A stretch of 64,000 bases of DNA, taken from NCBI GenBank assembly GCA_016928305.1, contig JAFGKY010000001.1, positions 1 through 64,000 of the forward strand, read 5' to 3'. The DNA is from Bacteroidales bacterium. GTDB lineage: Bacteria; Bacteroidota; Bacteroidia; Bacteroidales; UBA10428. Positions 31,661-46,578 of this stretch are shown here, piece by piece (the first letter of the stretch is position 1; every line of letters starts with the position of its first letter). The notes beneath the pieces were generated by a model. The model made no database searches and was not told where the DNA came from. It saw only the letters and a program-made list of their open reading frames with translations. Both the position numbers and the translations under genes were made by a program.

Positions 31661-34600
31661 ATGAATAAACCTTTAATGATGGGCATATTTTTGATATGCC
31701 CGAAAAAAATCTTGCTAACCATGAAACTGACCCTTTTACTAATCGTATTGGGTGCTCTTCAGACCTTCGCAACCAGCTTTTCACAAACGACGGAGATAAC
31801 CCTCGACCTGAAAAATGCACCGATCGCTCAGGTTTTTCATGAAATTGAACAACAATCCGATGTCCGGTTTCTGTATATAAACGAAGTTGTTCAGAATAAA
31901 ACCATTACCCTGAGTGTTGAAAAGAAAAACCTGGAAGAGGTATTGGACAAATTAAGAAATGAAACCAGGATGAAATTTACCGTACTGGAGAACAACCTCG
32001 TGGTTATTACCCCCAGTCGTCCGGCTCAGCAGGGCATTAAAATAACGGGGAAAGTAGTTACGGCGACAACAAGCGAAGCTCTTCCTGGCGTCAATGTCCT
32101 GGAAAAAGGAACCGTTAATGGCACCATCACCGATTTAGACGGTAATTTCTCATTAACAGTAGCCGGAACCGCTTCAGTACTTGTTTTCTCTTTTGTGGGC
32201 TATTTACCGGAAGAAATTGCAGTGGGTAATCAGACCAGTTTTTCTGTCAGCATGGTCGAGAATATTGAAGCCCTGCAGGAAATTGTTGTCGTTGGATACG
32301 GTGCCGTCCGGAAAATAGACCTTACAGGTGCCGTTAGCAGCGTTAAAACAAAAGATATACCCATTGTGGCAACTACTTCTGTTGATAATATGTTGCAGGG
32401 CAGGATTGCCGGTATGGTAATGCGGCTGAACAGCGCTCAGCCGGGCGGAAGATACAACATTACCGTACGCGGAGGAAATGATCCCCTGTACATTATCGAT
32501 GGCGTCCCAATAACCAATAACAGAGCGATTGAGAGTGGAATAATTGACGATAACCTTGGTTACTCGGGCGGAGTTGACAGGGACCCGCTCAACAGTATCA
32601 ATCCTTCTGATATCGAATCCATCGATGTGCTGAAAGATGCCAGTGCGGCTGCGATATACGGTTCAGCGGCTGCCGACGGTGTTATTCTTATCACCACAAA
32701 AAAAGGGAAAGCCGGTAAAGTGAATGTCGAATACAGGGGAAGTTCTACTATGCAGCGACCAAAACCTTATTTTGATCTGCTCGACTCAAAAGAGTTTATG
32801 GAGCAACACAACCGGTTTGAACTGGATCAATTTTTACTGGCCAGGCAGAATCCGCCATACGGAACAAGCGAAACCCCGGCTCCGACGCTTTTTTTCTCGC
32901 AGGAAACGATTGACACCACGACAACCAATACCGACTGGCTTGATCTGCTAATGCGGAATGGCACCATCCAGGAACATAACCTTTCCGTGACCGCGGGAAA
33001 TGATGTTTCAAAGCTGTTCGCATCCTTTAACTATTACGGAAATGAAGCATTGCTCGAGAATTCCTCCTTTAAACGTTACTCCGGAAGAGTGAACTTCGAT
33101 CAGAAAATCACAAAATGGCTGAAGTTCGGTGTTAACCTGACCTTTAGCCAGATCAATGCCAATAATGCATCAAGCGGTGCTAATGCGGGCGGACCCGAAA
33201 AATACAACATGCTCCAATCAGCCTATGTTTACAGTCCTGCATTACCTGTTTACGACAGCCTTAGAAAATATTCCAGGACTTACGACCCCAAAATTACCAG
33301 TCCTGCTGCATTTCTGATTATTAATGACATTACAAAAAACAATCGTTTTTTCGCCAATCCCAACCTGGAAGTCAGCATTTGTAAAAGTCTGAAGTTTAAT
33401 GCTGTAGGTGGCATTGACAAACAAACTTCAAACCGTAGTTTTTATCTGCCCAGAAGCGCCCTGAATGTTCAGCTGCCGAACGGTATGGCGCAGTTACTCA
33501 ACAATAAAATTGACAACTACAGTGCTGAAGCCTATTTTACTTTTAACAGGTTATTCGGGGCTCACAGCCTGAACGTTGTGTTGGGAGGAGGATATTATAA
33601 ATCCATCAATGAGGGATATGGATTGCAGGCTGTTGATTTCTTCACCGATGCTTTTTCATACCATAATATCGAAATTTCGTCAGACGATATACAGGACATG
33701 ATGAATTCCTATTTTGTTGAACGCACCAAGATTTCCCAGTTTTTACGAATAAACTATACAATAAAAGACAGGTATCTGTTCTCCATTGTCGGAAGAAATG
33801 ACGGAAGCAGCATATTTGCAGAAAACAGAAAATGGGGATTCTTTCCGGGCATCTCTGCAGCCTGGCGAATAAATCAGGAAGGATTTATGAAAAATGTCGA
33901 TTTTATTTCCGACCTGAAACTTCGGGCAGGCTTCGGAACAGCAGGTAATGAAGGGGCGATCGGCAATAATCCCTGGAAGTTATACGGCACAGGATATCCG
34001 TTCCTGATAGGTTCCACTACCTATCCGGGAGTTACTCTTTCCCAGCTTGATAATCCGAATCTTACCTGGGAAACAGATATTACGGAGAATATTGGTCTGG
34101 ACTTAGGCTTTTTCAAAAACAGGATCACCCTGGTTACCGATTTTTATATTAAAACAAAAAAAGACCTGTTGAGTTATAATACGCTGCCCTCCAATTCTCC
34201 TGTCGGTCGTATTGCCGATAATGTCGGAATACAGCGCAGCAAAGGATGGGAATTGAACATTTCATCGAAGAACCTTGTAGGGAAATTCACGTGGACAACC
34301 GATTTCACCATCTCAACCTATGACCTGAACTGGATTGAAAGAAATCCCCGGATAGCGCTTCCCTCGTATGTTAAGGAGGATGATCCGGTTTATGCGGTCT
34401 ATGGTTGGAAAACTGACGGACTTATAAAATCTTACGATGATACTATCGGTTATGTCAGCCAAATGACTTCAAAAGCACAGCTGGGGAATATTAAATATGT
34501 TGACATCAATAACGATGGTGTGCTGGATGAAGAAGATGTGGTAATGCTTGACGATGGTATACCCGACTGGAGCCTCGGATTAAACAATACATTCAGATTC

Positions 34601-35095
34601 TTTGGTTTTGACCTGAATATTTATATTTATGGCCTGCTGGGCAGAAAAGCATATAACGGGTACCGGAGTTTTCTGAATCCAACTGCTATTTCGGATAAAA
34701 TATATCCGTACAATACAATTACTGACATTAAGGATGTCTGGTCAAGTGATAATCCGGATGGCATATACCCGGGATTATCGGAAAACAGTAATCCCTATAA
34801 CGGCAGCAATCCGACATCAACCAATGATTTCTGGCTGATGGACGCCGGCTTTGTCAGGATTAAAAGCATTACACTGGGTTATACTTTACCGCAGCAATTG
34901 CTTTCGGCAATACATTTTAATACAATCAGACTTTATGTCGATGTGCAAAACCTTTATGTGTTCACAAAATATAAGGGTATTGATCCGGAATTATCTGATA
35001 TAAGATCATCAACCACTCCTGGGGTATTTCCGTCTGATGTAAATCCATATCCGCAAGCGTTGTCTATAACAACTGGTTTGAATTTCTCATTCTAA
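31661..35095 (+). CDS. SusC/RagA TonB-dependent glycan transporter with STN domain
   Basis: 1144 aa outer-membrane transporter. Signal peptide, then an STN domain (about 45-110, ITLDLKNAPIAQVFHEIE...), a carboxypeptidase-regulatory-like domain (about 125-205, ITGKVVTATTSEALPGVNVLEKGT), the plug (GYGAVRKIDLTGAVSSVK, LYIIDGVPI, DPLNSINPSDIESIDVLKDASAAAIYG) and a long barrel to the C-terminal Phe. The STN domain marks it as a signal transducer for the FecR and ECF sigma pair just upstream. It likely imports galactan or rhamnogalacturonan oligomers, with SusD as lid 23 bp downstream. The ATG at 31661 gives the long N-terminal signal typical of this class. Confidence 0.96.
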   Translation: MNKPLMMGIFLICPKKILLTMKLTLLLIVLGALQTFATSFSQTTEITLDLKNAPIAQVFHEIEQQSDVRFLYINEVVQNKTITLSVEKKNLEEVLDKLRNETRMKFTVLENNLVVITPSRPAQQGIKITGKVVTATTSEALPGVNVLEKGTVNGTITDLDGNFSLTVAGTASVLVFSFVGYLPEEIAVGNQTSFSVSMVENIEALQEIVVVGYGAVRKIDLTGAVSSVKTKDIPIVATTSVDNMLQGRIAGMVMRLNSAQPGGRYNITVRGGNDPLYIIDGVPITNNRAIESGIIDDNLGYSGGVDRDPLNSINPSDIESIDVLKDASAAAIYGSAAADGVILITTKKGKAGKVNVEYRGSSTMQRPKPYFDLLDSKEFMEQHNRFELDQFLLARQNPPYGTSETPAPTLFFSQETIDTTTTNTDWLDLLMRNGTIQEHNLSVTAGNDVSKLFASFNYYGNEALLENSSFKRYSGRVNFDQKITKWLKFGVNLTFSQINANNASSGANAGGPEKYNMLQSAYVYSPALPVYDSLRKYSRTYDPKITSPAAFLIINDITKNNRFFANPNLEVSICKSLKFNAVGGIDKQTSNRSFYLPRSALNVQLPNGMAQLLNNKIDNYSAEAYFTFNRLFGAHSLNVVLGGGYYKSINEGYGLQAVDFFTDAFSYHNIEISSDDIQDMMNSYFVERTKISQFLRINYTIKDRYLFSIVGRNDGSSIFAENRKWGFFPGISAAWRINQEGFMKNVDFISDLKLRAGFGTAGNEGAIGNNPWKLYGTGYPFLIGSTTYPGVTLSQLDNPNLTWETDITENIGLDLGFFKNRITLVTDFYIKTKKDLLSYNTLPSNSPVGRIADNVGIQRSKGWELNISSKNLVGKFTWTTDFTISTYDLNWIERNPRIALPSYVKEDDPVYAVYGWKTDGLIKSYDDTIGYVSQMTSKAQLGNIKYVDINNDGVLDEEDVVMLDDGIPDWSLGLNNTFRFFGFDLNIYIYGLLGRKAYNGYRSFLNPTAISDKIYPYNTITDIKDVWSSDNPDGIYPGLSENSNPYNGSNPTSTNDFWLMDAGFVRIKSITLGYTLPQQLLSAIHFNTIRLYVDVQNLYVFTKYKGIDPELSDIRSSTTPGVFPSDVNPYPQALSITTGLNFSF

Positions 35096-35118: not shown

Positions 35119-36684
35119 ATGAAATCGATAAAGTTCCTTATATATTTATTCACAGCCTTCGTTATATTATTGTCTGCCATTAGCTGTGAAGATGTGCTTG
35201 AACCGGTGATATACAGTGATCTTACTCCGGATAACTTCTTTAAGACAGAAGAGGATTTAAACAATGCCGTAATCGCTTTGTATAACCCGTTTTCCACCAA
35301 CTGGGGTACAACGGACCAGGGAGTAAACATATATTATGCCTCCTTGTATAACATCGACCAGAAAACCTATGTATGCCGCAGTATGCTTACTACCGACGAG
35401 TTGTATGATAATCCCACCTGGGATGCCAACCTGGTGAATTTTACCTGGGGACCCTCCACCTGGCTGATGTACGACTTCTCGGGTAGTTTGTATGAGGCGA
35501 ATTATCCCAAAATCCGTTTCGTTGCAAGGGCCACCGAAGTAATTGACAGGATTCCTGATGCCACTGATGTTCCGGAGCTCGTAAGAGACAAATACCTGGC
35601 AGAAGCAAAGGTGCTGAGAGCCTGGCTGATGTATGTATTGTATGATTTCTATGGCCCGGTAAATGTAAGGTTAGATCCCAATACGCTGACAGATACCACA
35701 ATAACACCAAGGCCTTCCACAGAAGAGTATTGCCTGCAGATTGAAACAGATCTGAAGGATGCCCTGGCAATTTCCAGTTCCAGTTTTCCGGAAAATTATA
35801 ACGACGATCCCGGTAACTGGGGAAGGGTTTCAAAAGGAGTTGCACGTATGCTGCTGCTGAAGCTGTACATGCACAACAGGCAATGGGCCAAAGCAGAGAC
35901 TATCGCAAAAGAGATAATAGATCTGAATTATTACAGTATTCTGCCAAATTATGAGGACGTTTTCAATGTTTCAATGAACAAGGAAGTTATATATGGATTA
36001 CCATGCAATTCCGGTTCTCCCAATTACTGGCTGGCACCTATTTTCCCGGGTGAATTTTCTTCGGGATATGCCGGGAGTACGTTGATAGATGTTAAAATAA
36101 ACGGCTGGTATGGTTTCTGGATGCCCTGGTCGCACTTCAACCAATTTGATACTGCCGATTTACGCAGAAATACAATTATATACGAATACCGAAATACCAA
36201 CAACCGGATAAGGAATCAGGCGAATTCAGGTCCAATGCTGGGAGCAATACCAATGAAGTATACTAAAATCCCATCAGGTGATGTCGGCCCTGCATTTACT
36301 ATGGATATGGTAGTTTTCAGGTATGCCGAAGTATTGTTGTCACTTGCCGAGGCCATTAACAACCAAAGAGGGCCCGAAGAAGCATTGCCTTATGTAAAGA
36401 TCATACGCGACAGGGCAGGTTTAACCACTGACATTGGAAGAGAATGGGATATTACAACCATACCTACCCGGGAAGTTATGAAGGATTCGCTGTTAGTTGA
36501 GCGTGGACGGGAACTATACTGCGAGGGATCACGCCGTCAGGATCTTGTTCGCAACGGGAAGTTTATTGAATATGCCCTGGCAAGGGGAGCCTTCGGCGCC
36601 ACCGATGCCGATACGATATTCCCCATACCTCAAGTCGTGATAACAGAGGGCAGAGGTATCATCCAGCAAAATCCGGGATATTAA
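35119..36684 (+). CDS. SusD/RagB surface glycan-binding lipoprotein
   Basis: 521 aa. Signal peptide with lipobox SAISC (Cys about residue 23), so anchored at the cell surface. The SusD motifs are present: LTPDNFFKTEEDLNNAV, YLAEAKVLRAWLMYVLYDFYGPV near the N-terminus, AKAETIAKEIIDLNYYSILP in the TPR part, and RYAEVLLSLAEAIN plus LLVERGRELYCEGSRRQDLVRNGKF at the C-terminus. It forms the lid of the SusC transporter encoded 23 bp upstream. Confidence 0.96.
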   Translation: MKSIKFLIYLFTAFVILLSAISCEDVLEPVIYSDLTPDNFFKTEEDLNNAVIALYNPFSTNWGTTDQGVNIYYASLYNIDQKTYVCRSMLTTDELYDNPTWDANLVNFTWGPSTWLMYDFSGSLYEANYPKIRFVARATEVIDRIPDATDVPELVRDKYLAEAKVLRAWLMYVLYDFYGPVNVRLDPNTLTDTTITPRPSTEEYCLQIETDLKDALAISSSSFPENYNDDPGNWGRVSKGVARMLLLKLYMHNRQWAKAETIAKEIIDLNYYSILPNYEDVFNVSMNKEVIYGLPCNSGSPNYWLAPIFPGEFSSGYAGSTLIDVKINGWYGFWMPWSHFNQFDTADLRRNTIIYEYRNTNNRIRNQANSGPMLGAIPMKYTKIPSGDVGPAFTMDMVVFRYAEVLLSLAEAINNQRGPEEALPYVKIIRDRAGLTTDIGREWDITTIPTREVMKDSLLVERGRELYCEGSRRQDLVRNGKFIEYALARGAFGATDADTIFPIPQVVITEGRGIIQQNPGY

Positions 36685-36804: not shown

Positions 36805-37629
36805 ATGAAAAAATTCTACTTTGTATTAGGCGTTTTAGCGCTTACGTTTGCACTGAACACAGCTTTTAAGGCAGCTGCACAAGATTCAATCAGCATTACC
36901 ATTTATGCCGATTGCAGAGACTTTGAAAATATAACAGCAGAGCCGGGCTCACCCGATTCAGCGGCTAATGCCCATAATGCATCACAGTATGTAAGTTATG
37001 ATCCCGCTGTATTATACCTGACCGGCAGCTGGACACCCGGACCTACGCCAGGTGATCCTAACTGGACTTTCTTTACCATGGATTCCATTGCCCCGCATAT
37101 CTTTAGTGTTACTTTCAAGTATGCACCGGGACAATTCGCAGGCAATGAAGCCGATGATCCGGATCTTCTGGAGGATTGTCCGGCATGGTATTTTTGCCCT
37201 ACCAACGACTGGAGTACTGCAGAATATGTACCGGCACCCTGTAACATTTGTTGGGATGTACAAAGGATTTTTTATATCGACGTCTACCAACCTGATCCTG
37301 ATACTGTGGTTGCCTTTAAATATGGCGTATGTGATCCGGTTCCGCTGGAATCGCTGGGCCTTCCCTGGCTGGGTGTAAACGATGCCGTAAATGAAAACAA
37401 CCTTATCATTTATCCGAATCCAAGTGACGGGGTAATTCATGTTGATTTAACTTCCTTTGCACCCGTTGCATCGATCGAAGTACTTGATCTGGCCGGACGA
37501 GTGGTCAGTACGATGAAAAATGCTTCCGGGAAGGTAACATTGAATATTACCGGAATGCCATCAAGCCTGTATTTCATCAGGGTGAATGACGGTATTCATT
37601 CCATTTATAAAAAAGTCGTCCTTAAATAA
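36805..37629 (+). CDS. T9SS-sorted protein with the GH53-accessory module, candidate surface glycan-binding protein
   Basis: 274 aa. Signal peptide 1-25 (cleavage near AAAQD). Residues about 65-178 hold a module with TGSW, GDPNW, FSVTFKYAPG, AWYFCPTNDW, EYVPAPCN, DVQRIFYIDV and FKYGVC. The same order of landmarks occurs twice in the GH53 enzyme of this PUL (for example DPWK, YSYSLNMHPG, FYFMNDNVWG, EDVPAEC, VDRGYKIGI, YKWGSC). Extra cysteines suggest disulfides. A type A T9SS sorting domain (about 195-274, IIYPNPSDG ... SLYFIRVNDG ... KKVVLK) would attach it to the surface. Its position just after susD is where SusE-type glycan-binding lipoproteins usually sit. I know no named family; binding is inferred from the shared module and context. 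Confidence 0.8.
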   Translation: MKKFYFVLGVLALTFALNTAFKAAAQDSISITIYADCRDFENITAEPGSPDSAANAHNASQYVSYDPAVLYLTGSWTPGPTPGDPNWTFFTMDSIAPHIFSVTFKYAPGQFAGNEADDPDLLEDCPAWYFCPTNDWSTAEYVPAPCNICWDVQRIFYIDVYQPDPDTVVAFKYGVCDPVPLESLGLPWLGVNDAVNENNLIIYPNPSDGVIHVDLTSFAPVASIEVLDLAGRVVSTMKNASGKVTLNITGMPSSLYFIRVNDGIHSIYKKVVLK

Positions 37630-37655
37630 AAACTTTCTCGTAGTATTTAGTTAAC

Positions 37656-37741
37656 ATAACCGCAGGGACAATTCAGATAAGATGAAAGACGGGGTTGAAG
37701 ATTTTCTGCCTGGCAGCAAAATCTATGGTCTCTGCGGTTAT
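37656..37741. repeat. Nested inverted repeat, MITE-like
   Basis: Outer arms of 14 bases (ATAACCGCAGGGAC with GTCTCTGCGGTTAT, one G-T pair) enclose 58 bases. A second smaller palindrome, TTTTCTGCC / GGCAGCAAAA with one bulge, lies inside near 37711. The whole is 86 bp, between the T9SS protein and the MFS gene. No transposase is present. Confidence 0.6.
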
Positions 37742-37779
37742 TTATTTTAATTTAGCGAAAGGCTGTAAAAAACCTTTTC

Positions 37780-39123
37780 ATGCAAGCGAAATACAACTGG
37801 GGATTTCTGGTTGGGGCCTCCCTTGCTTCAGCTATGGGAGGTTATTTATTTGGATTCGACTTTGCTGTGATCACCGGAGGCCTGCCATTCCTTCGCGAAC
37901 AATTCGGACTTGATGCTTTTTGGGAAGGATTCACAACAGGCTCGCTGGCTCTTGGATGTATGATGGGTTGCCTGATAGCCGGTAATATCGCCGACCGGTA
38001 TGGCCGAAAACCGGGGTTGCTTGCCGCCGCTTCTGTCTTTTTCCTTTCCTCCTTATCGATGGGACTTGCTCCCGACCTTGGCTTCTTTATTTTCTCCCGT
38101 TTTTTTGCCGGCATTGGTGTCGGGATGGCCTCGGTACTTTCCCCCATGTATATTGCCGAAATATCACCCCCGGAGGTGCGGGGCAGACTGGTTGCCATTA
38201 ACCAGCTTACCATTGTACTCGGCCAGGTTGTTACTCACCTCGAGAACTTCCTGCTGCGCAATATCGGAACCGATGCCTGGCGCTGGATGTTCGGACTGGG
38301 TACGGCACCGTCCCTGCTGTTTTTCACCGGTGTGCTTTTTCTTCCCGAAAGCCCGCGATGGCTGCTGCTTGGCGGCCGTGAAAACGATGCACGCAACGTT
38401 TTATGCCGTATTGGTTCCGCTGATTTTACTAAGGGCACCATTGAAACCATTCGTAAAACCTTGCACGGAATTGTTAAAGTGAGTTACAAAAAGGTTTTTA
38501 GCAAAACGATGCTTCCGGTTGTTCTAACTGGCATCGGACTGGCAGTTTTCCAGCAATTCTGCGGCATCAATATGGTATTCAATTATACCACCAATATATT
38601 TGAAAGCATTGGCGCCAGCACCAGTGAACAATTGTTGCAGGCAGTATGGATCGCCTTGTCTAATCTTGTGTTCACCCTACTGGCCATGGCGCTGGTTGAC
38701 CGTCTCGGGAGAAAACCTATTATGCTCTTTGGGGCCGGAGGGCTGGCTGTCCTGTATGTCATCATCGGATCGATTTTATACCGGTCAACCGGAAATGGAC
38801 TGTCCCTGTTTATCCTCATGGCCATCGGAGTATACGCCATGTCGCTTGCACCATTAACCTGGGTGCTGATTTCGGAGATCTTCCCGAACCAGATACGAGG
38901 TGCGGCTGTTTCCATTGCCGTTCTCAGTCTCTGGTTCGCCTATTTTATCCTTGTATTTACATTTCCTGCCATTGCCAAAACCTATGGCCCTGCCAAAGCA
39001 TTCTGGGGATATGCTGTCATCTGTGTGCTGGGTTTTATTTTTATATTTTCCCGCGTAAAAGAAACGAAAGGGAAATCGCTTGAAGACATTGAAAAAGAAC
39101 TGGCAGGCAAACCCAACGCGTGA
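37780..39123 (+). CDS. MFS sugar porter
   Basis: 447 aa, 12 membrane segments, inner membrane. The sugar-porter signatures are GYLFGFDFAVITGGLPF in helix 1, GNIADRYGRKPG and RFFAGIGVGMASVLSPMYIAEISPPEVRGR in the N-half, PESPRWLL in the central loop, QQFCGINMVFNY in helix 7 and DRLGRKP in the C-half. Family members (XylE, GalP) are proton symporters of hexoses or pentoses. In this PUL it probably takes up galactose released by GH35 or by the GH-A enzyme. Confidence 0.95.
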   Translation: MQAKYNWGFLVGASLASAMGGYLFGFDFAVITGGLPFLREQFGLDAFWEGFTTGSLALGCMMGCLIAGNIADRYGRKPGLLAAASVFFLSSLSMGLAPDLGFFIFSRFFAGIGVGMASVLSPMYIAEISPPEVRGRLVAINQLTIVLGQVVTHLENFLLRNIGTDAWRWMFGLGTAPSLLFFTGVLFLPESPRWLLLGGRENDARNVLCRIGSADFTKGTIETIRKTLHGIVKVSYKKVFSKTMLPVVLTGIGLAVFQQFCGINMVFNYTTNIFESIGASTSEQLLQAVWIALSNLVFTLLAMALVDRLGRKPIMLFGAGGLAVLYVIIGSILYRSTGNGLSLFILMAIGVYAMSLAPLTWVLISEIFPNQIRGAAVSIAVLSLWFAYFILVFTFPAIAKTYGPAKAFWGYAVICVLGFIFIFSRVKETKGKSLEDIEKELAGKPNA

Positions 39124-39192
39124 GAATAACCACAAATCGGAATCCTGCTGCACAGTAAATAAATAATGCATTAAAAATTAATTTATATACGG

Positions 39193-41655
39193 ATGAAAAA
39201 GAAAAAAGTAAGTTGCTTCTTTTGCCAAACAAGATTGCTTGCAATGCTCTGCCTTTGTTGGTTTAACCTGACATCAGGTCAGGATATATATACCATTGAT
39301 GTCAGCCAAACAAAAAAAGAAATCCTACGGGATCATCTCGACCTTGGCGGTAAAAGTGTTACCGGTGAATCCATCGAAGTAAACAGCTTCTATATCGAAC
39401 GAAACGGAAAACCTTATTTCCCCGTGATGGGTGAATTTCATTACAGCCGCTTTCCCAATCAATACTGGGATGAGGAAATAAAGAAAATGAAAGCCGGGGG
39501 TATCAACGTCATTGCCAGTTATGTTTTCTGGATTCTGCATGAACGGCAGGAAGGAGTATTTAACTGGCAAGGTGATCTGAACCTGCGGAAATTTGTTGAA
39601 CTGTGCCACAAAAACGATATGGAGGTGATCATCCGTATCGGACCGTTTGCACACGGTGAAATGCGGAACGGTGGACTGCCCGACTGGCTTTACGGAAGAC
39701 CCTTCGAGATCCGTTCCAACGACCCGGCTTACCTTGCTTATGTAAAGCGCCTTTACGACCAAATTGCCAATCAGCTTAAGGAATTGTACTTTAAAGACGG
39801 TGGCCCGATCATCGGCATCCAGCTTGAAAACGAATACCAGCATTCCGCAGCTCCCTGGTCGCTTTATTACCCGGGAAGTGACAAAGAATGGTCGGCCGCA
39901 CGATTTGACCGTGAAATCATCCAGGGAGGTGTTGGTGTGAATGAAATGGGAAATGACTATGCAGCATACGGGCAAAAGCACATGCAGCTATTGAAAGAAA
40001 TGGCAAAATCGGCCGGTATGGATGTTCCCATTTATACAGCCACGGGTTGGGGCTTTGCCAGCATTGTTGAGAAAGGATCGATTCCGGTATCAGGAGGTTA
40101 TGCTTATCCAACATGGGTCGCAAGTGACATCCCTTCAACTCTGTATCTCTATAAAGACCTGCATAAAAATCCTGATTATTCACCGGTCAGCTATAATCCC
40201 GAACTATATCCTTCTATGGCAGCAGAACTTGGGACCGGCATGTGCAATACCTATACCAAACGGCCTCGTGTGCCGGCTGAAAGCTTTTTACCCATGATGG
40301 TGCGTACACTGGGCAGCGGTACAAACGGACTGGGTTATTATATGTACCACGGAGGTAACAATCCTTCCGATGGCCCTTTGTATTATTCCGAAGGCTTCGG
40401 ATACACCAATAAATCCTATGACTATCAGGCACCCATTGGCGAATATGGTATCGCTGGTCGGGGATTCTATTACCTTAAACTGGTTAATTACTTTTTACAG
40501 CATTATGGTGACCTGCTGGCTCCACTTCCGACTGTATTGCCCGAAACAAACAGCCGGATTGCACCCGACAATACCACAACCCTGAGGTATGCTGTGCGAA
40601 GTAATGGCAATACAGGCTTTCTGTTCATGCACAATTTTCAGGATCATGTCAAAACCGGCGACCTGAATAACCTGCAAATAAAAATCCATACGGGAAAAGG
40701 AGAGATCACCATTCCGGAAACCGGCAGCTTTAACCTGAAAACAGGTACTTCGGTGACTTTACCCTTCCATTTGGAACTGGATGGATTACTGATAAAATAT
40801 GCCACAGTGCAACCCTTCTGTTCATTCATGAACGCCAATGATACTTACCACGTGTTTTGGTCAGTGGAAGGGCTATCTCCCGAAATTGTTTTCAACAATC
40901 CCCTGTCTGTGAAAACCGACGGCATTGCCGTTTTACATAAAAACGGAAATATGGTTGTGACAGGAGAGGAGGGAAAATTATTTGAATGCATTGTCGATCA
41001 AACAGAACAAAAAATTCATTTTCTGGTTATCCCGATGGAAAAAGCATTACAGGCATATCTTACAGGAAGTCCGGGGAATCAGCATCTTGTGATAAGTGAG
41101 GCCATCGTGCTGGAAGAAAAAGATATCATCAGCCTGATAAAAGCCGGGAAAGAGGAATGGAAAATCGAAGTATATCCGAAAGTAAAATCGGTTGAGGCAG
41201 TAGATGCAAAACTTACCCTCCTGAAAAGCGAAAAGGATTATATGACATCATGGAACATAAGCGTTTCTGCACTTGTTCCTGCCGTCACATTTACCCGGAC
41301 CGATGATCGTCATACGGTTCTTGATGCAAAAGATCTTAATCTGAAAAACCTTAATGATGTTTATATACGATTTGATTACCTGGGTGACAGGGCGATGTGC
41401 TTTCTGAATGGCGAATTGCAAACGGACAATTTCTGCATTGGCGAACCCTGGCTGATCGGATTAAAACGTTTTGAATCACAGCTTCAGGAAAATGACATGT
41501 ATTTCTATTTTATCCCGATGAAAAAGAAGGCTCCTTATTTAAGCTATTTTGATAAAGAAATATTGCCTGATTTTTCAGCCATCAGGGACTTCCTCGAGAT
41601 AAAAGAACCGGAAGTTATACCGGAATATAAGGTAAAAATAAAAATTATGAAATGA
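39193..41655 (+). CDS. GH35 beta-galactosidase
   Basis: 820 aa. Signal peptide (LLAMLCLCWFNLTSGQ). The (beta/alpha)8 domain begins with YIERNGKPYFPVMGEFHYSRFP and has YVFWILHERQEGVFNW, IRIGPFAHGEMRNGGLPDWL and the acid/base motif GIQLENEY. The candidate nucleophile Glu is in PSMAAELGTGM. Beta-sandwich domains follow (from about residue 420). GH35 enzymes remove terminal beta-galactose from galacto-oligosaccharides. It is 69 bp behind the MFS gene. Periplasmic location is most likely; no T9SS tail is seen. Confidence 0.92.
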   Translation: MKKKKVSCFFCQTRLLAMLCLCWFNLTSGQDIYTIDVSQTKKEILRDHLDLGGKSVTGESIEVNSFYIERNGKPYFPVMGEFHYSRFPNQYWDEEIKKMKAGGINVIASYVFWILHERQEGVFNWQGDLNLRKFVELCHKNDMEVIIRIGPFAHGEMRNGGLPDWLYGRPFEIRSNDPAYLAYVKRLYDQIANQLKELYFKDGGPIIGIQLENEYQHSAAPWSLYYPGSDKEWSAARFDREIIQGGVGVNEMGNDYAAYGQKHMQLLKEMAKSAGMDVPIYTATGWGFASIVEKGSIPVSGGYAYPTWVASDIPSTLYLYKDLHKNPDYSPVSYNPELYPSMAAELGTGMCNTYTKRPRVPAESFLPMMVRTLGSGTNGLGYYMYHGGNNPSDGPLYYSEGFGYTNKSYDYQAPIGEYGIAGRGFYYLKLVNYFLQHYGDLLAPLPTVLPETNSRIAPDNTTTLRYAVRSNGNTGFLFMHNFQDHVKTGDLNNLQIKIHTGKGEITIPETGSFNLKTGTSVTLPFHLELDGLLIKYATVQPFCSFMNANDTYHVFWSVEGLSPEIVFNNPLSVKTDGIAVLHKNGNMVVTGEEGKLFECIVDQTEQKIHFLVIPMEKALQAYLTGSPGNQHLVISEAIVLEEKDIISLIKAGKEEWKIEVYPKVKSVEAVDAKLTLLKSEKDYMTSWNISVSALVPAVTFTRTDDRHTVLDAKDLNLKNLNDVYIRFDYLGDRAMCFLNGELQTDNFCIGEPWLIGLKRFESQLQENDMYFYFIPMKKKAPYLSYFDKEILPDFSAIRDFLEIKEPEVIPEYKVKIKIMK

Positions 41656-41730
41656 GTCCACACCGAAAAGCACTAATAATCATGCTTATGTTAAGGACTA
41701 AAGCCCTCTGTACATAGCTAATTGACTAAT

Positions 41731-41750
41731 CCCAGCCTTAAGGCTGTGGG
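41731..41750. repeat. REP-like palindrome C
   Basis: Stem CCCAGCC / GGCTGTGGG (one extra base) around TTAA. On the complementary strand its flank AATAACCCCA resembles that of palindrome A (AATAGCCCCA). Confidence 0.6.
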
Positions 41751-41773
41751 GTTATTGAGAACCTGCTTTTTAA

Positions 41774-41787
41774 AGGGCTTTAGCCCT
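41774..41787. repeat. Short palindrome AGGGCT-TT-AGCCCT
   Basis: Perfect 6-bp stem with TT loop. A related half (ACTAAAGCCCTC) occurs 70 bases upstream at about 41697-41708, so palindrome C is framed by two related sequences. Confidence 0.5.
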
Positions 41788-41854
41788 GAATTGAATATTT
41801 TTCAAAGTAGACTCAATAAGAGAATCTTTAATAACGAAATTATCACAAAATCTA

Positions 41855-44473
41855 ATGAAAATCAGAAATTGCGTTCTATTGCTGGTTTTGCTCTTTATGA
41901 TTCCAGCATTTGCACAAAAACCGGGGGACGCTGGTACAAAAACAAGGTCGGTCCACCTCGATAAAAAGGGTGTGATCCGCTGGGAAAACAACGAAGAGGT
42001 GGCCCTGTTCGGCGCCAATTATTGCCTGCCTGCAGCCGGTGATTACCGTGCAGCCGGCTACATATCGGATGACCGGAAAAAAATGATCGACCAGGATATG
42101 GCGCATTTTGCCCGTATGAGTTGGGATGGACTGCGTGTCTGCCTGTGGGGCGATTACGAGAACAGTGACAAGGAAGGAAACCTGGTCGAGAATGATCACC
42201 TCGACCTGATGGACTACTTGATTTACAAGGCAAAAGAAAGAGGTATTTATATGTTGTTTACTCCCATTCATACGTATAATTCACAATGGCCTGATGCCCT
42301 GGAAGATACGATTTCAGCCAGGGGATTTTCAACCTTTTATAAAAAGTCGGAACTGGGTACCAACCCCGAAGCGATAAGGGCACAGGTTAACTACCTGAAA
42401 CAAATCCTTAATCATGTCAATCCTTATACCGGAATAGCCATAAAAGATGAACCTTCCATACTTTTTATTGAAATGATAAACGAACCTGATCATCACAGTA
42501 ATGATTTTGCAGGATCGGTGAGTTACATCAATACCTTGGTGGATGCAGTCAGGAGCACCGGGTGTAAAAAAATTCTGTTTCATAATGTCACCCAGGATAT
42601 GAAAATGGCCCGGGCAATAAAAGCCTCGAAAGCGGATGGGATCACATTTGGCTGGTATCCGATGGGACTGGTGTCCGGGCACAGACTGCAGGGAAACCAC
42701 CTGAGGGCCGTTGATGATTATACTACCATGCATACAACCGAATTAAAGAGCATGCCCAGAATCGTTTACGAATTCGACGAAGCCGACAGCTATACACCTT
42801 ATATGTATCCCGCCATGGTTCGTTCTTTCAGGGGTGTAGGAGCACAGTTTGCCTCCATGTTCTCATACGATATGCTGGCTACCGCTCCTTATAACCTGGG
42901 ATGGCAGACACACCTGATGAATATGGTATATTATCCCCAGAAAGCGGTTGCAGCCGTCATCGCTGCCGCCGTTATGAAAAAAATCCCTTTGTATCAGCAA
43001 TATGGCAGATATCCTCAGAATACAACATTTGGTCCGTTCCGGGTTGATTACGAACAAAACCTGAGCAAGATGGTCTCTACCGAACAATTCTATTATTCCA
43101 ACACAACAACTACCCAACCTCCGGATGCAGGCAGGCTGAAAAAAATAGTCGGATACGGATCTTCACCTGTAATCCATTATCCCGGCAAAGGAATTTATTT
43201 TATGGATAAGGTTAAAGACGGTGTATGGCGGCTTGAAGTGTATCCGGATGCCCTGCTGACCGAAGATCCCTTTGAACAGCCGAACCGTAATAAAATTGTC
43301 AGCCGGCTGATTGCACGCAGGTGGCCGATGACTGTCGACCTGCCTGACCTGGGTCGAACCTTCGACGTTTTACCGGTAAATAAAGGAAATTCCTGGACTA
43401 CCCGTGCGAAAAACGGGAAATTCGATATCCAGCCCGGAGTCTATGTGCTCTCATCCGATGAAAACCTTGCTATGAGCACCCTGCCTGAGAAAATAGGAAG
43501 TATCGGCTTCAACGAATTTGTTTGTCCTGCCCCCATGGAGCTGCCCTTGAGCGTGAACTGCATTGCACAGGCTGTATATAATGAAGGCGACAGTATCGCT
43601 ATCCGGATTGAGGTCATTGACAACCAGACACCGCAGGATGTGAGCCTGTATTACCGTTCCATCCGTTACCGTAACTGGTATCATAAAGTGCCCATGAAAT
43701 GCCTCGACGGATATATCTACGAAACTGTGATACCCGCTGATAAAATACAGACCGGAATATACAACTATTGTGTCACTGTAACCTCCGGCCATTCAACCCT
43801 TACTTTTCCCGGAGCTGTGAAAGAAGGTCCCCGAAACTGGGATTTTTATATGCCCGAATCGTGGAAGTTTTCTGTTGTGGATAAAAAGGCAGCTTTATGT
43901 TTGCTTGATCCCTTAAAAGATATTGAATATCTCTCGTTCACTCGCATTGGTGACGGATGGCGGCAGGGTGTTTATGATGTCCTGCCGGCGGCCGACAGGG
44001 GAAAAACAGCCCTCCGGTTGTATCTTCCTTTTACCATCGATAAAACCCTCGACGATTATACCATGTCCGTTCCCATAAAAGACAAGATCCTTGCCCGCAG
44101 AAATAACCTGGAGCATGCAAAGGGAATTGTTCTGCGCACAAGGGGAGACCTGAAAGGACAGTCAGCTTTTATTACGCTGATGGAAGCCGACGGAACCTCA
44201 TGGAGCGCATCCTTTGAAGTAACCGGTGAGTGGCAGGAGCAATACATACCGCTTGAGAACCTCAAAGCGGGCAATGGTGTTTTGCTGCCCCTCGGATTCC
44301 CGGAACGGTGGAATTACTGGGTCAGACCTGCCGGCGACCGCGGAGGCCCGGATGACCATATAAAAACAGACCGGGTTGAAAGGATTCAGGTATCGGTAAG
44401 GCCATCCGGAACCCTTATCCCCAAAGAAAATCCCTGGTTGGATGTGAGTACGATTACTATTAACTTTGAATAA
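41855..44473 (+). CDS. Clan GH-A glycoside hydrolase, possible GH147-like beta-galactosidase
   Basis: 872 aa. Signal peptide (CVLLLVLLFMIPAFAQ). The first 400 residues are a TIM barrel: LFGANYCLPAAGDYRAAGY, MSWDGLRVCLWGDYEN, and the clan GH-A acid/base motif FIEMINEPDHH, with a candidate nucleophile in PRIVYEFDEAD. The second half is beta-rich, with a C-terminal part (about 690-872) that looks like a carbohydrate-binding sandwich (AKGIVLRTRGDLKGQSAFITLMEADG). GH5, GH2-like and GH147 remain possible; GH147 beta-galactosidases are known from Bacteroides galactan loci, which is why I favour it. Five bases separate it from the GH53 gene. Confidence 0.75.
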   Translation: MKIRNCVLLLVLLFMIPAFAQKPGDAGTKTRSVHLDKKGVIRWENNEEVALFGANYCLPAAGDYRAAGYISDDRKKMIDQDMAHFARMSWDGLRVCLWGDYENSDKEGNLVENDHLDLMDYLIYKAKERGIYMLFTPIHTYNSQWPDALEDTISARGFSTFYKKSELGTNPEAIRAQVNYLKQILNHVNPYTGIAIKDEPSILFIEMINEPDHHSNDFAGSVSYINTLVDAVRSTGCKKILFHNVTQDMKMARAIKASKADGITFGWYPMGLVSGHRLQGNHLRAVDDYTTMHTTELKSMPRIVYEFDEADSYTPYMYPAMVRSFRGVGAQFASMFSYDMLATAPYNLGWQTHLMNMVYYPQKAVAAVIAAAVMKKIPLYQQYGRYPQNTTFGPFRVDYEQNLSKMVSTEQFYYSNTTTTQPPDAGRLKKIVGYGSSPVIHYPGKGIYFMDKVKDGVWRLEVYPDALLTEDPFEQPNRNKIVSRLIARRWPMTVDLPDLGRTFDVLPVNKGNSWTTRAKNGKFDIQPGVYVLSSDENLAMSTLPEKIGSIGFNEFVCPAPMELPLSVNCIAQAVYNEGDSIAIRIEVIDNQTPQDVSLYYRSIRYRNWYHKVPMKCLDGYIYETVIPADKIQTGIYNYCVTVTSGHSTLTFPGAVKEGPRNWDFYMPESWKFSVVDKKAALCLLDPLKDIEYLSFTRIGDGWRQGVYDVLPAADRGKTALRLYLPFTIDKTLDDYTMSVPIKDKILARRNNLEHAKGIVLRTRGDLKGQSAFITLMEADGTSWSASFEVTGEWQEQYIPLENLKAGNGVLLPLGFPERWNYWVRPAGDRGGPDDHIKTDRVERIQVSVRPSGTLIPKENPWLDVSTITINFE

Positions 44474-44478
44474 AACGA

Positions 44479-46578
44479 ATGATGATGAGAAATTGCTTTG
44501 TGTGGATCACAATTTTGCTTGTGCATGGTTTTGCCGGCTTCAGCCAGACTTTTTACCGGGGAAATGACCTTTCTTACGTAAATCAAATGGAGGACTGTGG
44601 TGCAGTTTTCAAGGAAAACGGAGTGCCTAAAGACGTATATCAGATTTTCGCTGATCATGGTACCAACCTGGTAAGGATGAGGCTTTGGGTGGATCCTGCC
44701 TGGCAGAATGATCTGGTTCAGCCAGCAGGAGTAAAACTCCAATACAGTGACTTTGAAGATGTAAAGGAAACCATATCCCGTAGCAAGGCCGCCGGGATGC
44801 AGGTTCTGCTCGATTTTCATCTTTCTGACTTCTGGGCCGATCCGGGGAAGCAGTTAATCCCTGCGAAATGGCTTGGAGTGGCTTATGACGTAAATGCATT
44901 GAAAGATTCGGTATACAACTATGTTATTCAGGTGCTTACCGATCTGAATAACGATTCGCTGATGCCCGAAATGGTTCAGATCGGGAATGAAACCAACGGA
45001 GGTATATTGCGTCATACCACCATTGATGAAAACTACAACGTGGGAGGAAGCGTTAGTTCCAGCTGGGCCAGGCATGCACAGTTGTTTAACAGCGCCATAA
45101 AAGCCGTAAGAGATATTAATGACAGCACAACAATAAAACCAAAGATAGCATTACACTGTGCTGACCCGAAAAACATTTCCTGGTTCTTTTCAAATATCAT
45201 AAGCTATGGTGTCACCGATTTCGACATCATGGGATTTTCATACTATTATGCCTGGCATAAAAAAAGCATCGCAGAACTTGGCTCAGCAGTGAAATCGCTG
45301 AAAACCACTTATCCCGCGTATGAAGTCATGGTTCTTGAAACAGGTTATCCGTGGACAACGCAAAATTTTGATGCTTATCCGAATCTCATTACAATCCCTG
45401 ATCCGCAATATATACCGCTGTTTCCAGAAAAGCAGCTGGAATATATGGTGGATTACACCCGTGCAGTAATGAAAAACGGAGGCTCAGGAGTTATCTTCTG
45501 GGAGCCGGCCTGGGTATCCACTCCCTGCAAGACACCCTGGGGTCAGGGATCATCTCATGATCATTTGGTACTCTTTGATCCGGTAAATGTTAACTTTATG
45601 GATAATGGAGGTGGAAGATGGACCGAACCTCAATTCTATGAGGACCTGAATACCGTTAAAGTTACATTCAAGGTTGATATGACCGGACAGGACGTCTCAA
45701 ATGGAGTATACATTGCGGGTGACCTTGCAGGTGACACCGCCGGTATTTTTCCAATGGCTGATAACGGTCACGGAATATATAGTTATTTCACATACCTCAC
45801 ACCCGGTGATACAGGAAGTTATTGTTTTTTAAATGACAGCTCACTGATAGCCGGGGAAACGGTTCCTCCTGAATGTGCAATAGGGGGCGGTACCTTAAGG
45901 AGATTTACAGTTGAAGAAAGCGATAAAGTTTACGCCTACACCTGGGGGACCTGTTACCCTCCCGGCATTCCTGAAACCGTGAAGGTTACATTTGTTGTTG
46001 ACATGACGGATCAGGATATATCTGACGGGGTTTGGGTAACCGGGACAATGACCGGAGATCCCTGGAAAATAATGGCAATGACACCGGTCGGTAACAATCT
46101 TTACAGCTACTCCCTGAATATGCATCCCGGGGATTCCGGTGCCTTTTATTTTATGAACGATAACGTATGGGGGGAACGCGAGGATGTGCCAGCGGAATGC
46201 TCACCATGGTGGGGTGTTGACAGGGGATATAAAATCGGCATTAAAGATACGATCTATTCTTATAAATGGGGCTCATGCGAATCACTTGGACTTACAACAT
46301 TATACAGGGATAAAAAAATGGAAGCAGGAGAAATAACTTCTGGCATAGAGATCTATCCGAATCCTGCATACCGTAAGGTATTCATTCAAACTTCCGATTG
46401 CGATCCGATTAAGGCTGTCATGATCTTCAATTATTCCGGCAAACTTATCAGAACAACAAACGATAACACCCTGAAGCCTGAGGTTGAGATAAGCCTTGCT
46501 GATTTGGCACCAGGAATTTATTTTTACAAAGTGACAACAGAAAGTAATTTCGTCTGTAAAAAGATTATCAAACTTTAA
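44479..46578 (+). CDS. GH53 endo-beta-1,4-galactanase with two accessory modules and T9SS tail
   Basis: 699 aa. Signal peptide, then a GH53 barrel (about 20-385): RGNDLSYVNQMEDCGAVF, TNLVRMRLWVDPA, acid/base Glu171 in QIGNETNGG, nucleophile Glu287 in MVLETGYPW. It cuts beta-1,4-galactan side chains of rhamnogalacturonan I. Two related modules follow at about 393-492 and 501-600, each starting KVTF-VDMT-QD and ending in YxWGxC with a VPxEC before it. A type A T9SS sorting domain (about 625-699: IEIYPNPAYRKVFIQ ... LAPGIYFYKVTTES) would place it on the cell surface. The accessory module is also found in the protein after SusD. It is the last gene of the PUL. Confidence 0.95.
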   Translation: MMMRNCFVWITILLVHGFAGFSQTFYRGNDLSYVNQMEDCGAVFKENGVPKDVYQIFADHGTNLVRMRLWVDPAWQNDLVQPAGVKLQYSDFEDVKETISRSKAAGMQVLLDFHLSDFWADPGKQLIPAKWLGVAYDVNALKDSVYNYVIQVLTDLNNDSLMPEMVQIGNETNGGILRHTTIDENYNVGGSVSSSWARHAQLFNSAIKAVRDINDSTTIKPKIALHCADPKNISWFFSNIISYGVTDFDIMGFSYYYAWHKKSIAELGSAVKSLKTTYPAYEVMVLETGYPWTTQNFDAYPNLITIPDPQYIPLFPEKQLEYMVDYTRAVMKNGGSGVIFWEPAWVSTPCKTPWGQGSSHDHLVLFDPVNVNFMDNGGGRWTEPQFYEDLNTVKVTFKVDMTGQDVSNGVYIAGDLAGDTAGIFPMADNGHGIYSYFTYLTPGDTGSYCFLNDSSLIAGETVPPECAIGGGTLRRFTVEESDKVYAYTWGTCYPPGIPETVKVTFVVDMTDQDISDGVWVTGTMTGDPWKIMAMTPVGNNLYSYSLNMHPGDSGAFYFMNDNVWGEREDVPAECSPWWGVDRGYKIGIKDTIYSYKWGSCESLGLTTLYRDKKMEAGEITSGIEIYPNPAYRKVFIQTSDCDPIKAVMIFNYSGKLIRTTNDNTLKPEVEISLADLAPGIYFYKVTTESNFVCKKIIKL

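Follow-up and report, generated by a model that had tools for sequence, protein, structure and literature searches.

Some GH53 enzymes carry CBM61, a module that binds β-1,4-galactan, and galactan side chains are borne by rhamnogalacturonan I (RG-I). The galactan polysaccharide utilization locus (PUL) of Bacteroides thetaiotaomicron is drawn with SusE-, SusD-, and SusC-like proteins (PMC5238430). Starch-binding site one of glucoamylase consists of Trp543, Lys578, and Trp590 (PMC9920598). A precedent for CBM20/48 members on PUL enzymes that do not act on starch is provided by the CBM48 domains of CE1 feruloyl esterases, in which starch binding is reported to have been lost (PMC8040265). Here, we analyzed a 64,000-nt stretch of a Bacteroidales bacterium (GenBank assembly GCA_016928305.1, contig JAFGKY010000001.1, positions 1 to 64,000 of the forward strand; hereafter, the window), in which a cysteine-bearing module occurs three times: twice in tandem (M1 and M2) in a GH53 endo-β-1,4-galactanase and once in a stand-alone protein (S) encoded directly 3′ of a SusD gene. 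Judged from sequence and predicted structure, the module is probably, though by no means certainly, a pectin-directed offshoot of the CBM20/48 superfamily that serves both on enzymes and, instead of SusE, as a surface glycan-binding protein attached through the type IX secretion system (T9SS).

One module in three copies

By BLASTP, M1 and M2 were 43% identical over 100 gap-free residues (E = 3e-30), M2 and S 29% identical (E = 8e-14, with an insertion on the S side), and M1 and S 24% identical (E = 0.002, marginal taken alone). The observed score was never reached in 1,000 shuffles of each pair (z = 41, 19, and 5.8, respectively), and M1 and S both fell under the same module profile. These results bear out an earlier sequence-only reading of the window, which had placed the three copies at these coordinates and a type A T9SS tail behind them; the tails were recovered with TIGR04183 and PF18962 (Table 1). 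That reading had also claimed the same ordered landmarks for every copy, which fails for M1, where GDTA stands in place of GDPW, NDSSL in place of NDxW, and TLRR in place of V(D/Q)R. Invariant in 27 aligned copies were the Gly of PG, the Glu of RE, both cysteines, and an Arg. Outside the conserved pair, S has extra cysteines at residues 37, 125, 131, and 149, M1 has one (residue 449), and M2 has none. Among the candidates scored in the window's genome (12 of 21 and 12 of 43), only these three copies matched the module profile at E ≤ 0.001, and the galactanase was the sole GH53 protein found in this genome (4.8 Mb, 173 contigs, 93.75% complete, listed contamination 6.8%).

Placement in the CBM20/48 superfamily

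Searched against Pfam-A, the three window copies gave no hit to CBM_20 and only chance-level matches below cut-off; NCBIfam matches in the window proteins were confined to the T9SS tails, and a single-sequence PDB search returned no match for the GH53 tandem and only T9SS tails and weak noise for S. Profiles and predicted folds pointed to starch-binding domains. The best PDB profile match of module alignments A1 and A4 was the starch-binding domain of Aspergillus niger glucoamylase (E = 3.7e-4 and 2.3e-4, respectively), and the second match of A4 was the SusE/SusF-type protein BT3088 SGBPdex, which covered part of the module only (E = 4.5e-4, positions 14–53). The model of the M1-M2 tandem had a mean predicted local distance difference test score (pLDDT) of 89, and its M2 part matched the CBM20 of STBD1 (8x8k) in the fold search with a Z of 11.1, a root mean square deviation (rmsd) of 2.6, 94 aligned residues, and 18% identity. 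The top 20 rows for M2 comprised STBD1, human CBM20 2z0b, glucoamylases, and CGTases, the last two presumably matching through their CBM20, with which the C-terminal aligned ranges agree; the best 50 rows, down to a Z of 8.7 and at 9–21% identity, were starch- or glycogen-binding entries and 4rkk, which is titled only as a phosphatase. One of these 50 rows covered M1 alone, the β-amylase of Bacillus cereus (1veo; Z 8.9, rmsd 2.4, 86 aligned). The S model was weaker (pLDDT 76.5): its best match, again the STBD1 CBM20 (rmsd 2.8, 93 aligned), had a Z of 7.7, which lies within the tool's warning range for a merely common arrangement, and its best Foldseek E-value was 4.6e-3, with most lower fold-search rows being starch-binding chains.

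The models thus contain the starch-binding-domain β-sandwich of CBM20, clearly in M2 and less so in M1 and S. Two relatives crossed a Pfam cut-off themselves, the GH53 module of locus L116 for CBM_20 (24.2 versus 23.3) and the two-module protein of L182 for AMPK1_CBM (29.6 versus 26.8). The same reading had called the module undescribed; by profile, predicted fold (weaker for S), and tree (see below), it is instead recognizable as a CBM20/CBM48 branch, an assignment that we make with high confidence for M2, with good confidence for M1 through its homology to M2, and with fair confidence for S. The module may already carry a CAZy or dbCAN number; in further literature searches, it was named in none of the listed titles or abstract openings.

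M2 shares with CBM20 (A. niger glucoamylase 1ac0, human STBD1 8x8k) the predicted fold, the profile match, the equivalent of Trp543, and a cysteine at the VP-x-C position. The module is not CBM20 proper, since the site-1 Lys and a Pfam match are lacking in the window; in addition, the hosts of the window branch are pectinases, and the VP-x-C cysteine probably pairs with a second conserved, C-terminal cysteine, whereas its partner in glucoamylase is N-terminal. The nearest outgroup found consists of the CBM48/X25/AMPK1_CBM-type modules of Bacteroidota, which have the Cys, Glu, and Arg framework in common with the window branch but differ from it in having Lys or Arg at module position 57 and, for the most part, His at position 19 and Asn at position 81, as well as in their hosts, which are α-amylases and long multi-module proteins.

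A pectin-linked branch with an altered site 1

After identical proteins were removed, our collection comprised 80 proteins with 201 modules. The tree was built from 92 of these over 98 columns, with the three site columns removed, and included 53 pectin-linked modules (on GH53, the RG-I lyase PL11, an RhgA-like protein, or small PUL proteins, two fragments being placed by neighborhood) and 39 others (on amylases etc.). All 53 pectin-linked modules fell on one side of a single branch (support 100/97; 200 of 200 bootstrap trees), and the host label required one change on the tree versus 30 on average with shuffled labels; 35 of the 89 inner branches remained open, and the bootstrap was still unsettled. 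Of the pectin rows, the one from the second module of the two-module protein at L182 came closest to the outgroup. The two S-type rows (those of the window and L039) fall within the pectin side, on a long branch (1.88) that leaves their exact placement unsure.

HMMER aligned Trp543 with position 29 and Lys578 with position 57 of M2, given a PDB-to-protein numbering offset that we assumed for the glucoamylase. Trp590 falls in an unaligned insert, so its putative counterpart, position 64, was assigned from its location before the RE-VP-C motif. In the pectin group, position 57 is occupied by Tyr in 44, Phe in 2, and another residue in 7 of 53 modules, versus Lys in 31, Arg in 4, another residue in 4, and neither Tyr nor Phe in any of the 39 outgroup tree rows; one change on the tree accounts for this exchange. 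In the full set, Tyr occupied position 57 in 4 of 137 modules on proteins outside the named host classes, three of which resemble a shifted Lys-Tyr and one of which (L124) is a genuine Tyr. The pectin group further differs by an aromatic residue replacing His at 19, Asp replacing Asn at 81, and Arg at 67. Position 29 was not a clean group marker, as the outgroup Trp seems to sit in shifted columns. In the window, the Trp-Lys-Trp of CBM20 is replaced by Trp-Tyr-Trp in M2 and S and by Ala-Cys-Leu in M1. Trp-Tyr-Trp was intact in 40 of the 53 pectin-group modules, including 10 of 11 stand-alone modules, one of two on PL11, and the single RhgA-like one. At L182 (8714–9757), a two-module T9SS protein beside a two-module GH53 has Ala at the Lys/Tyr position of its second module.

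Host enzymes and candidate ligand

The aligned modules were distributed over GH53 proteins (37 modules on 23 proteins, identified by similarity to the window's catalytic domain), stand-alone proteins (11 on 10), PL11 RG-I lyases (2 on 2; L135 and L136), an RhgA-like protein (1), fragments (3), α-amylases (7 on 3), and other proteins (137 on 37); these counts tilt toward GH53 because the module profile was built from GH53 modules and are, accordingly, no unbiased census. The RhgA-like host (L137) is a right-handed β-helix protein with NosD and Beta_helix as its best rows and with PF12708, of the rhamnogalacturonase A/epimerase type, over cut-off at 34 bits. Among the 14 of 37 other proteins that were scanned with Pfam, 13 exceeded the cut-off for CBM48, CBM20, X25, or AMPK1_CBM, and one (L034) had such matches only below it. 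One of these 14 is an ASST protein (L142), and long proteins at L120, L121, L124, L132, L184, and L185 carry 4 to 10 tandem starch-like outgroup modules.

The GH53, PL11, and RhgA-like hosts provide genomic evidence, in line with the sequence-only reading, for an association with galactan- and RG-I-degrading enzymes. Within a pectin-binding role, the ligand could be, instead of β-1,4-galactan, the backbone of RG-I or some other pectic chain, a refinement that overlaps the preferred explanation and that we regard as unlikely, albeit with a substantial chance: it is favored by the copies found on two RG-I lyases of PL11 and on an RhgA-like protein, whereas GH53 hosts number 23 proteins versus these three, though the search profile favors GH53. 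As RG-I bears galactan side chains, both kinds of host fit galactan alike. The proposed ligand would be that of CBM61, to which we liken the module by description alone.

Loss of the site-1 triad in GH53 modules

In the 14 two-module GH53 proteins, the triad was present in every second copy (14/14) and in 8 of 14 first copies. The six first copies without it (window, L112, L115, L138, L139, and L182) differ from the triad at each of its positions, partly through conservative changes (Phe replaces Trp at 64 in L112 and L115, and Tyr at 57 in L182), and retain 6 to 9 of 9 other conserved residues. Since the three positions are distant in sequence and changed jointly, they act like one site. Because L112 and L115 are sisters, as are L138 and L139, the triad may have been lost separately at most four times, with open forks in the tree leaving their independence unproven. 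Taken together, the hosts, the conservation of the site, and its joint loss make pectic-glycan binding the most likely function of the module.

Several observations weigh against this interpretation, among them the weak S model, the unsure tree position of the S-type rows, the indirect assignment of position 64, and the tilt of the host counts described above. Single-module GH53 proteins keep the triad in only 4 of 9 cases (L037, L104, L111, and L116); the sole module lacks both tryptophans in L032 and L033 and shows one or two changes in L031, L106, and L183. The CE1-esterase CBM48 domains, which we set beside the pectin branch by description as another module on non-starch PUL enzymes, bound none of the tested glycans (PMC8040265). 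At L032, the neighboring stand-alone protein retains the triad; given this case and the losses in single-module GH53s, the enzyme's module may be dispensable beside a separate surface binder. Alternatively, binding may not be the module's sole function.

A structural or docking domain, which would stabilize or space the enzyme or join GH53 and S by like-with-like contacts and bind no sugar, strikes us as unlikely, yet it is to be taken seriously. It would explain why six tandem first copies persist although they lack the triad and why five of nine single-module GH53s have at least one change, and it has a parallel in the CE1-esterase CBM48 of a Bacteroidota PUL, which packs on the catalytic domain and bound no tested glycan (PMC8040265). 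Such a domain is harder to reconcile with the 8 of 15 loci in which SusD is followed by a single-module protein that bears a signal peptide and a T9SS tail and no enzyme domain, with a triad kept in 10 of 11 stand-alone modules, or with the joint change of all three triad positions in six first copies that otherwise keep most of their conserved residues. It is improbable that the module still binds α-glucan, as would be expected of relatives on amylases: the superfamily is the same and M2 and S retain both site-1 tryptophans, but the site-1 Lys position is Tyr or Phe in 46 of 53 pectin-group modules, and none of the catalytic hosts identified in the group (GH53, PL11, and the RhgA-like β-helix protein) is amylolytic.

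A T9SS protein in the SusE slot

To SusE/SusF-type lipoproteins (PF14292), S is comparable in that it occupies the slot directly after SusD in a GH53 PUL. We surveyed this slot at 15 loci that show SusD and the following gene (L037, which also has a SusC/SusD pair, was left out). A single-module protein follows SusD in 8 of 15 (window, L028, L030, L031, L032, L112, L115, and L039, the last having no GH53 on its contig and a SusC, SusD, and MFS transporter 77 to 89% identical to the window's), and a SusE protein (PF14292) does so in 5 of 15 (L029, L104, L116, L182, and L183); these counts agree with the earlier proposal that the small T9SS protein takes the SusE role, in so far as it occupies the slot held by SusE in related loci. 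The remaining slots hold another T9SS protein (L136) and a protein with other domains (L033). Mutual exclusion is broken at L182, where SusD is followed by SusE and GH53 by a two-module T9SS protein. Among the stand-alone proteins, a T9SS tail was recognized by Pfam in those of the window, L028, L039, L112, L115, and L182, by BLAST in those of L031, L032, and L035, and only by eye in that of L030.

S is not a SusE protein, because the PF14292 domain and the lipobox are absent: Pfam gave no match of S to this SusE N-terminal domain, and no lipobox was visible by eye, the first cysteine being residue 37, past the signal peptide. It also differs from the SusE/SusF type in having one module and a T9SS tail. 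From its position and architecture, we infer that S may be a T9SS-delivered surface glycan-binding protein; it may function like both the CBM20 and the SusE types. Our literature search combining SusE-like, T9SS, and carbohydrate-binding module found no paper. A search for T9SS in the window's genome, made with PorV, found two homologues over cut-off (G000:C146:40014-41075 and G000:C94:18180-19310), which are either paralogues or derive from a second organism (6.8% contamination). Together with the SusC/SusD pairs and the T9SS tails, PorV marks the genome as probably one of Bacteroidota.

Across the phylum, GH53 exceeded its cut-off in 94 of 395 genomes and carried the module in at least five (the window's own, G089, G238, G270, and G341), a lower bound, as 12 candidates at most were scored per genome; the module on GH53 is a minority feature. 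The module profile matched in 28 of the 395 genomes from the phylum and in 48 of the 393 from the order. Among 60 relatives, GH53 was found in 23 genomes, with the module in 8 of those (own included), and S had a single close relative (G002, 70%); in plasmids, S gave weak matches only. Beyond Bacteroidota, the gammaproteobacterium Saccharobesus litoralis has the tandem at the extreme C terminus of a GH53 that lacks a sorting domain and is encoded on a 208-kb plasmid (NZ_CP026605.1), and additional copies occur on a Thalassotalea contig and in a gammaproteobacterial metagenome-assembled genome. Besides the GH53 with its modules, the S. litoralis plasmid locus (L002, 13834–24916) encodes a TonB-dependent receptor, a GH2-type enzyme, and a homologue of the window's 872-amino-acid (aa) protein, and it looks like inter-phylum exchange. 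In the metagenome-assembled genome (L110, 1976–3295), the stop codon of a secreted 154-aa single-module protein with no T9SS tail directly abuts the start of a gene for a GH53 that has a signal peptide of its own. Copies outside Bacteroidota that lack a sorting domain indicate that the module is not tied to T9SS; an accessory role in T9SS export or surface attachment without sugar binding, suggested by the T9SS tail behind every window copy, is very improbable in view of the tail-less S. litoralis tandem and this 154-aa module before GH53.

Proposed mechanism

If the module is indeed a pectin-directed offshoot of CBM20/48, it would hold β-1,4-galactan or galactan-bearing RG-I at the putative CBM20 site-1 position, where the two tryptophans stay and the starch-binding Lys is replaced by Tyr. 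M2 would tether the galactanase to its substrate, with M1 as a decayed copy that may serve as a spacer. S would be exported via T9SS, attached outside the cell, and, as the surface binder of the galactan PUL, replace the SusE lipoprotein and feed SusCD. A wider scenario, possible but more tentative, is that the branch switched from α-1,4-glucan to β-1,4-galactan/RG-I through the site-1 Lys-to-Tyr exchange, spread to GH53, PL11, and RhgA-like hosts in two phyla, and was freed as a T9SS single-module replacement of SusE. If these proposals are true, a starch-binding fold has been reused for pectin with a testable residue exchange, the module may provide a new galactan/RG-I probe, a protein delivered by T9SS rather than by the lipoprotein path can take over from SusE in a PUL, and a module of these pectinases that Pfam misses could be given a name in annotation.

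Feature coordinates and neighboring genes

Table 1. Features of the module-bearing PUL, in window coordinates
Feature	Coordinates	Strand	Evidence
Stand-alone module protein S, 274 aa, directly 3′ of SusD gene	36805..37629	+	Open reading frame (ORF), sequence
S signal peptide, ~residues 1-26			Read by eye
Module of S, residues 27-179, recognizable core 68-179	36883..37341	+	BLASTP, alignment, predicted fold
S module residues: W87, Y129, W136 (site-1-like); Cys146 and Cys176 (align with conserved pair)			
T9SS type A sorting domain of S, residues 202-274	37408..37626	+	TIGR04183 44.3 bits (cut-off 23); PF18962
GH53 endo-β-1,4-galactanase, 699 aa	44479..46578	+	PF07745 311 bits
GH53 catalytic domain, residues 26-368	44554..45582	+	Pfam
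Module M1 of GH53, residues 393-494; triad positions Ala-Cys-Leu	45655..45960	+	
Module M2 of GH53, residues 501-603; W529, Y557, W564 intact; Cys574, Cys600	45979..46287	+	
T9SS type A sorting domain of GH53, residues 625-698	46351..46572	+	TIGR04183 45.5 bits; PF18962 agrees
SusD-type protein, immediately 5′ of S	35119..36684	+	ORF; similar proteins in same place at other loci
SusC-type TonB-dependent transporter	31661..35095	+	ORF
GH35 β-galactosidase, same PUL	39193..41655	+	PF01301 205 bits

According to the ORF list, with GH names from Pfam, the PUL runs sigma factor, FecR-type regulator, SusC, SusD, S, MFS transporter, GH35, the 872-aa protein, and GH53; the sigma factor, FecR-type regulator, SusC, SusD, and MFS transporter are presumptive names given from sequence features (for SusD, also from gene order). 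The secreted 872-aa protein (41855–44473) had no Pfam match over cut-off (weak CBM_48, E = 0.03). Homologues with 33–55% identity lie near GH53 in L002, L029, L031, L104, L136, and L182, and the window's protein contains an IEMINEP stretch that, we presume, resembles the clan GH-A hydrolase motif.

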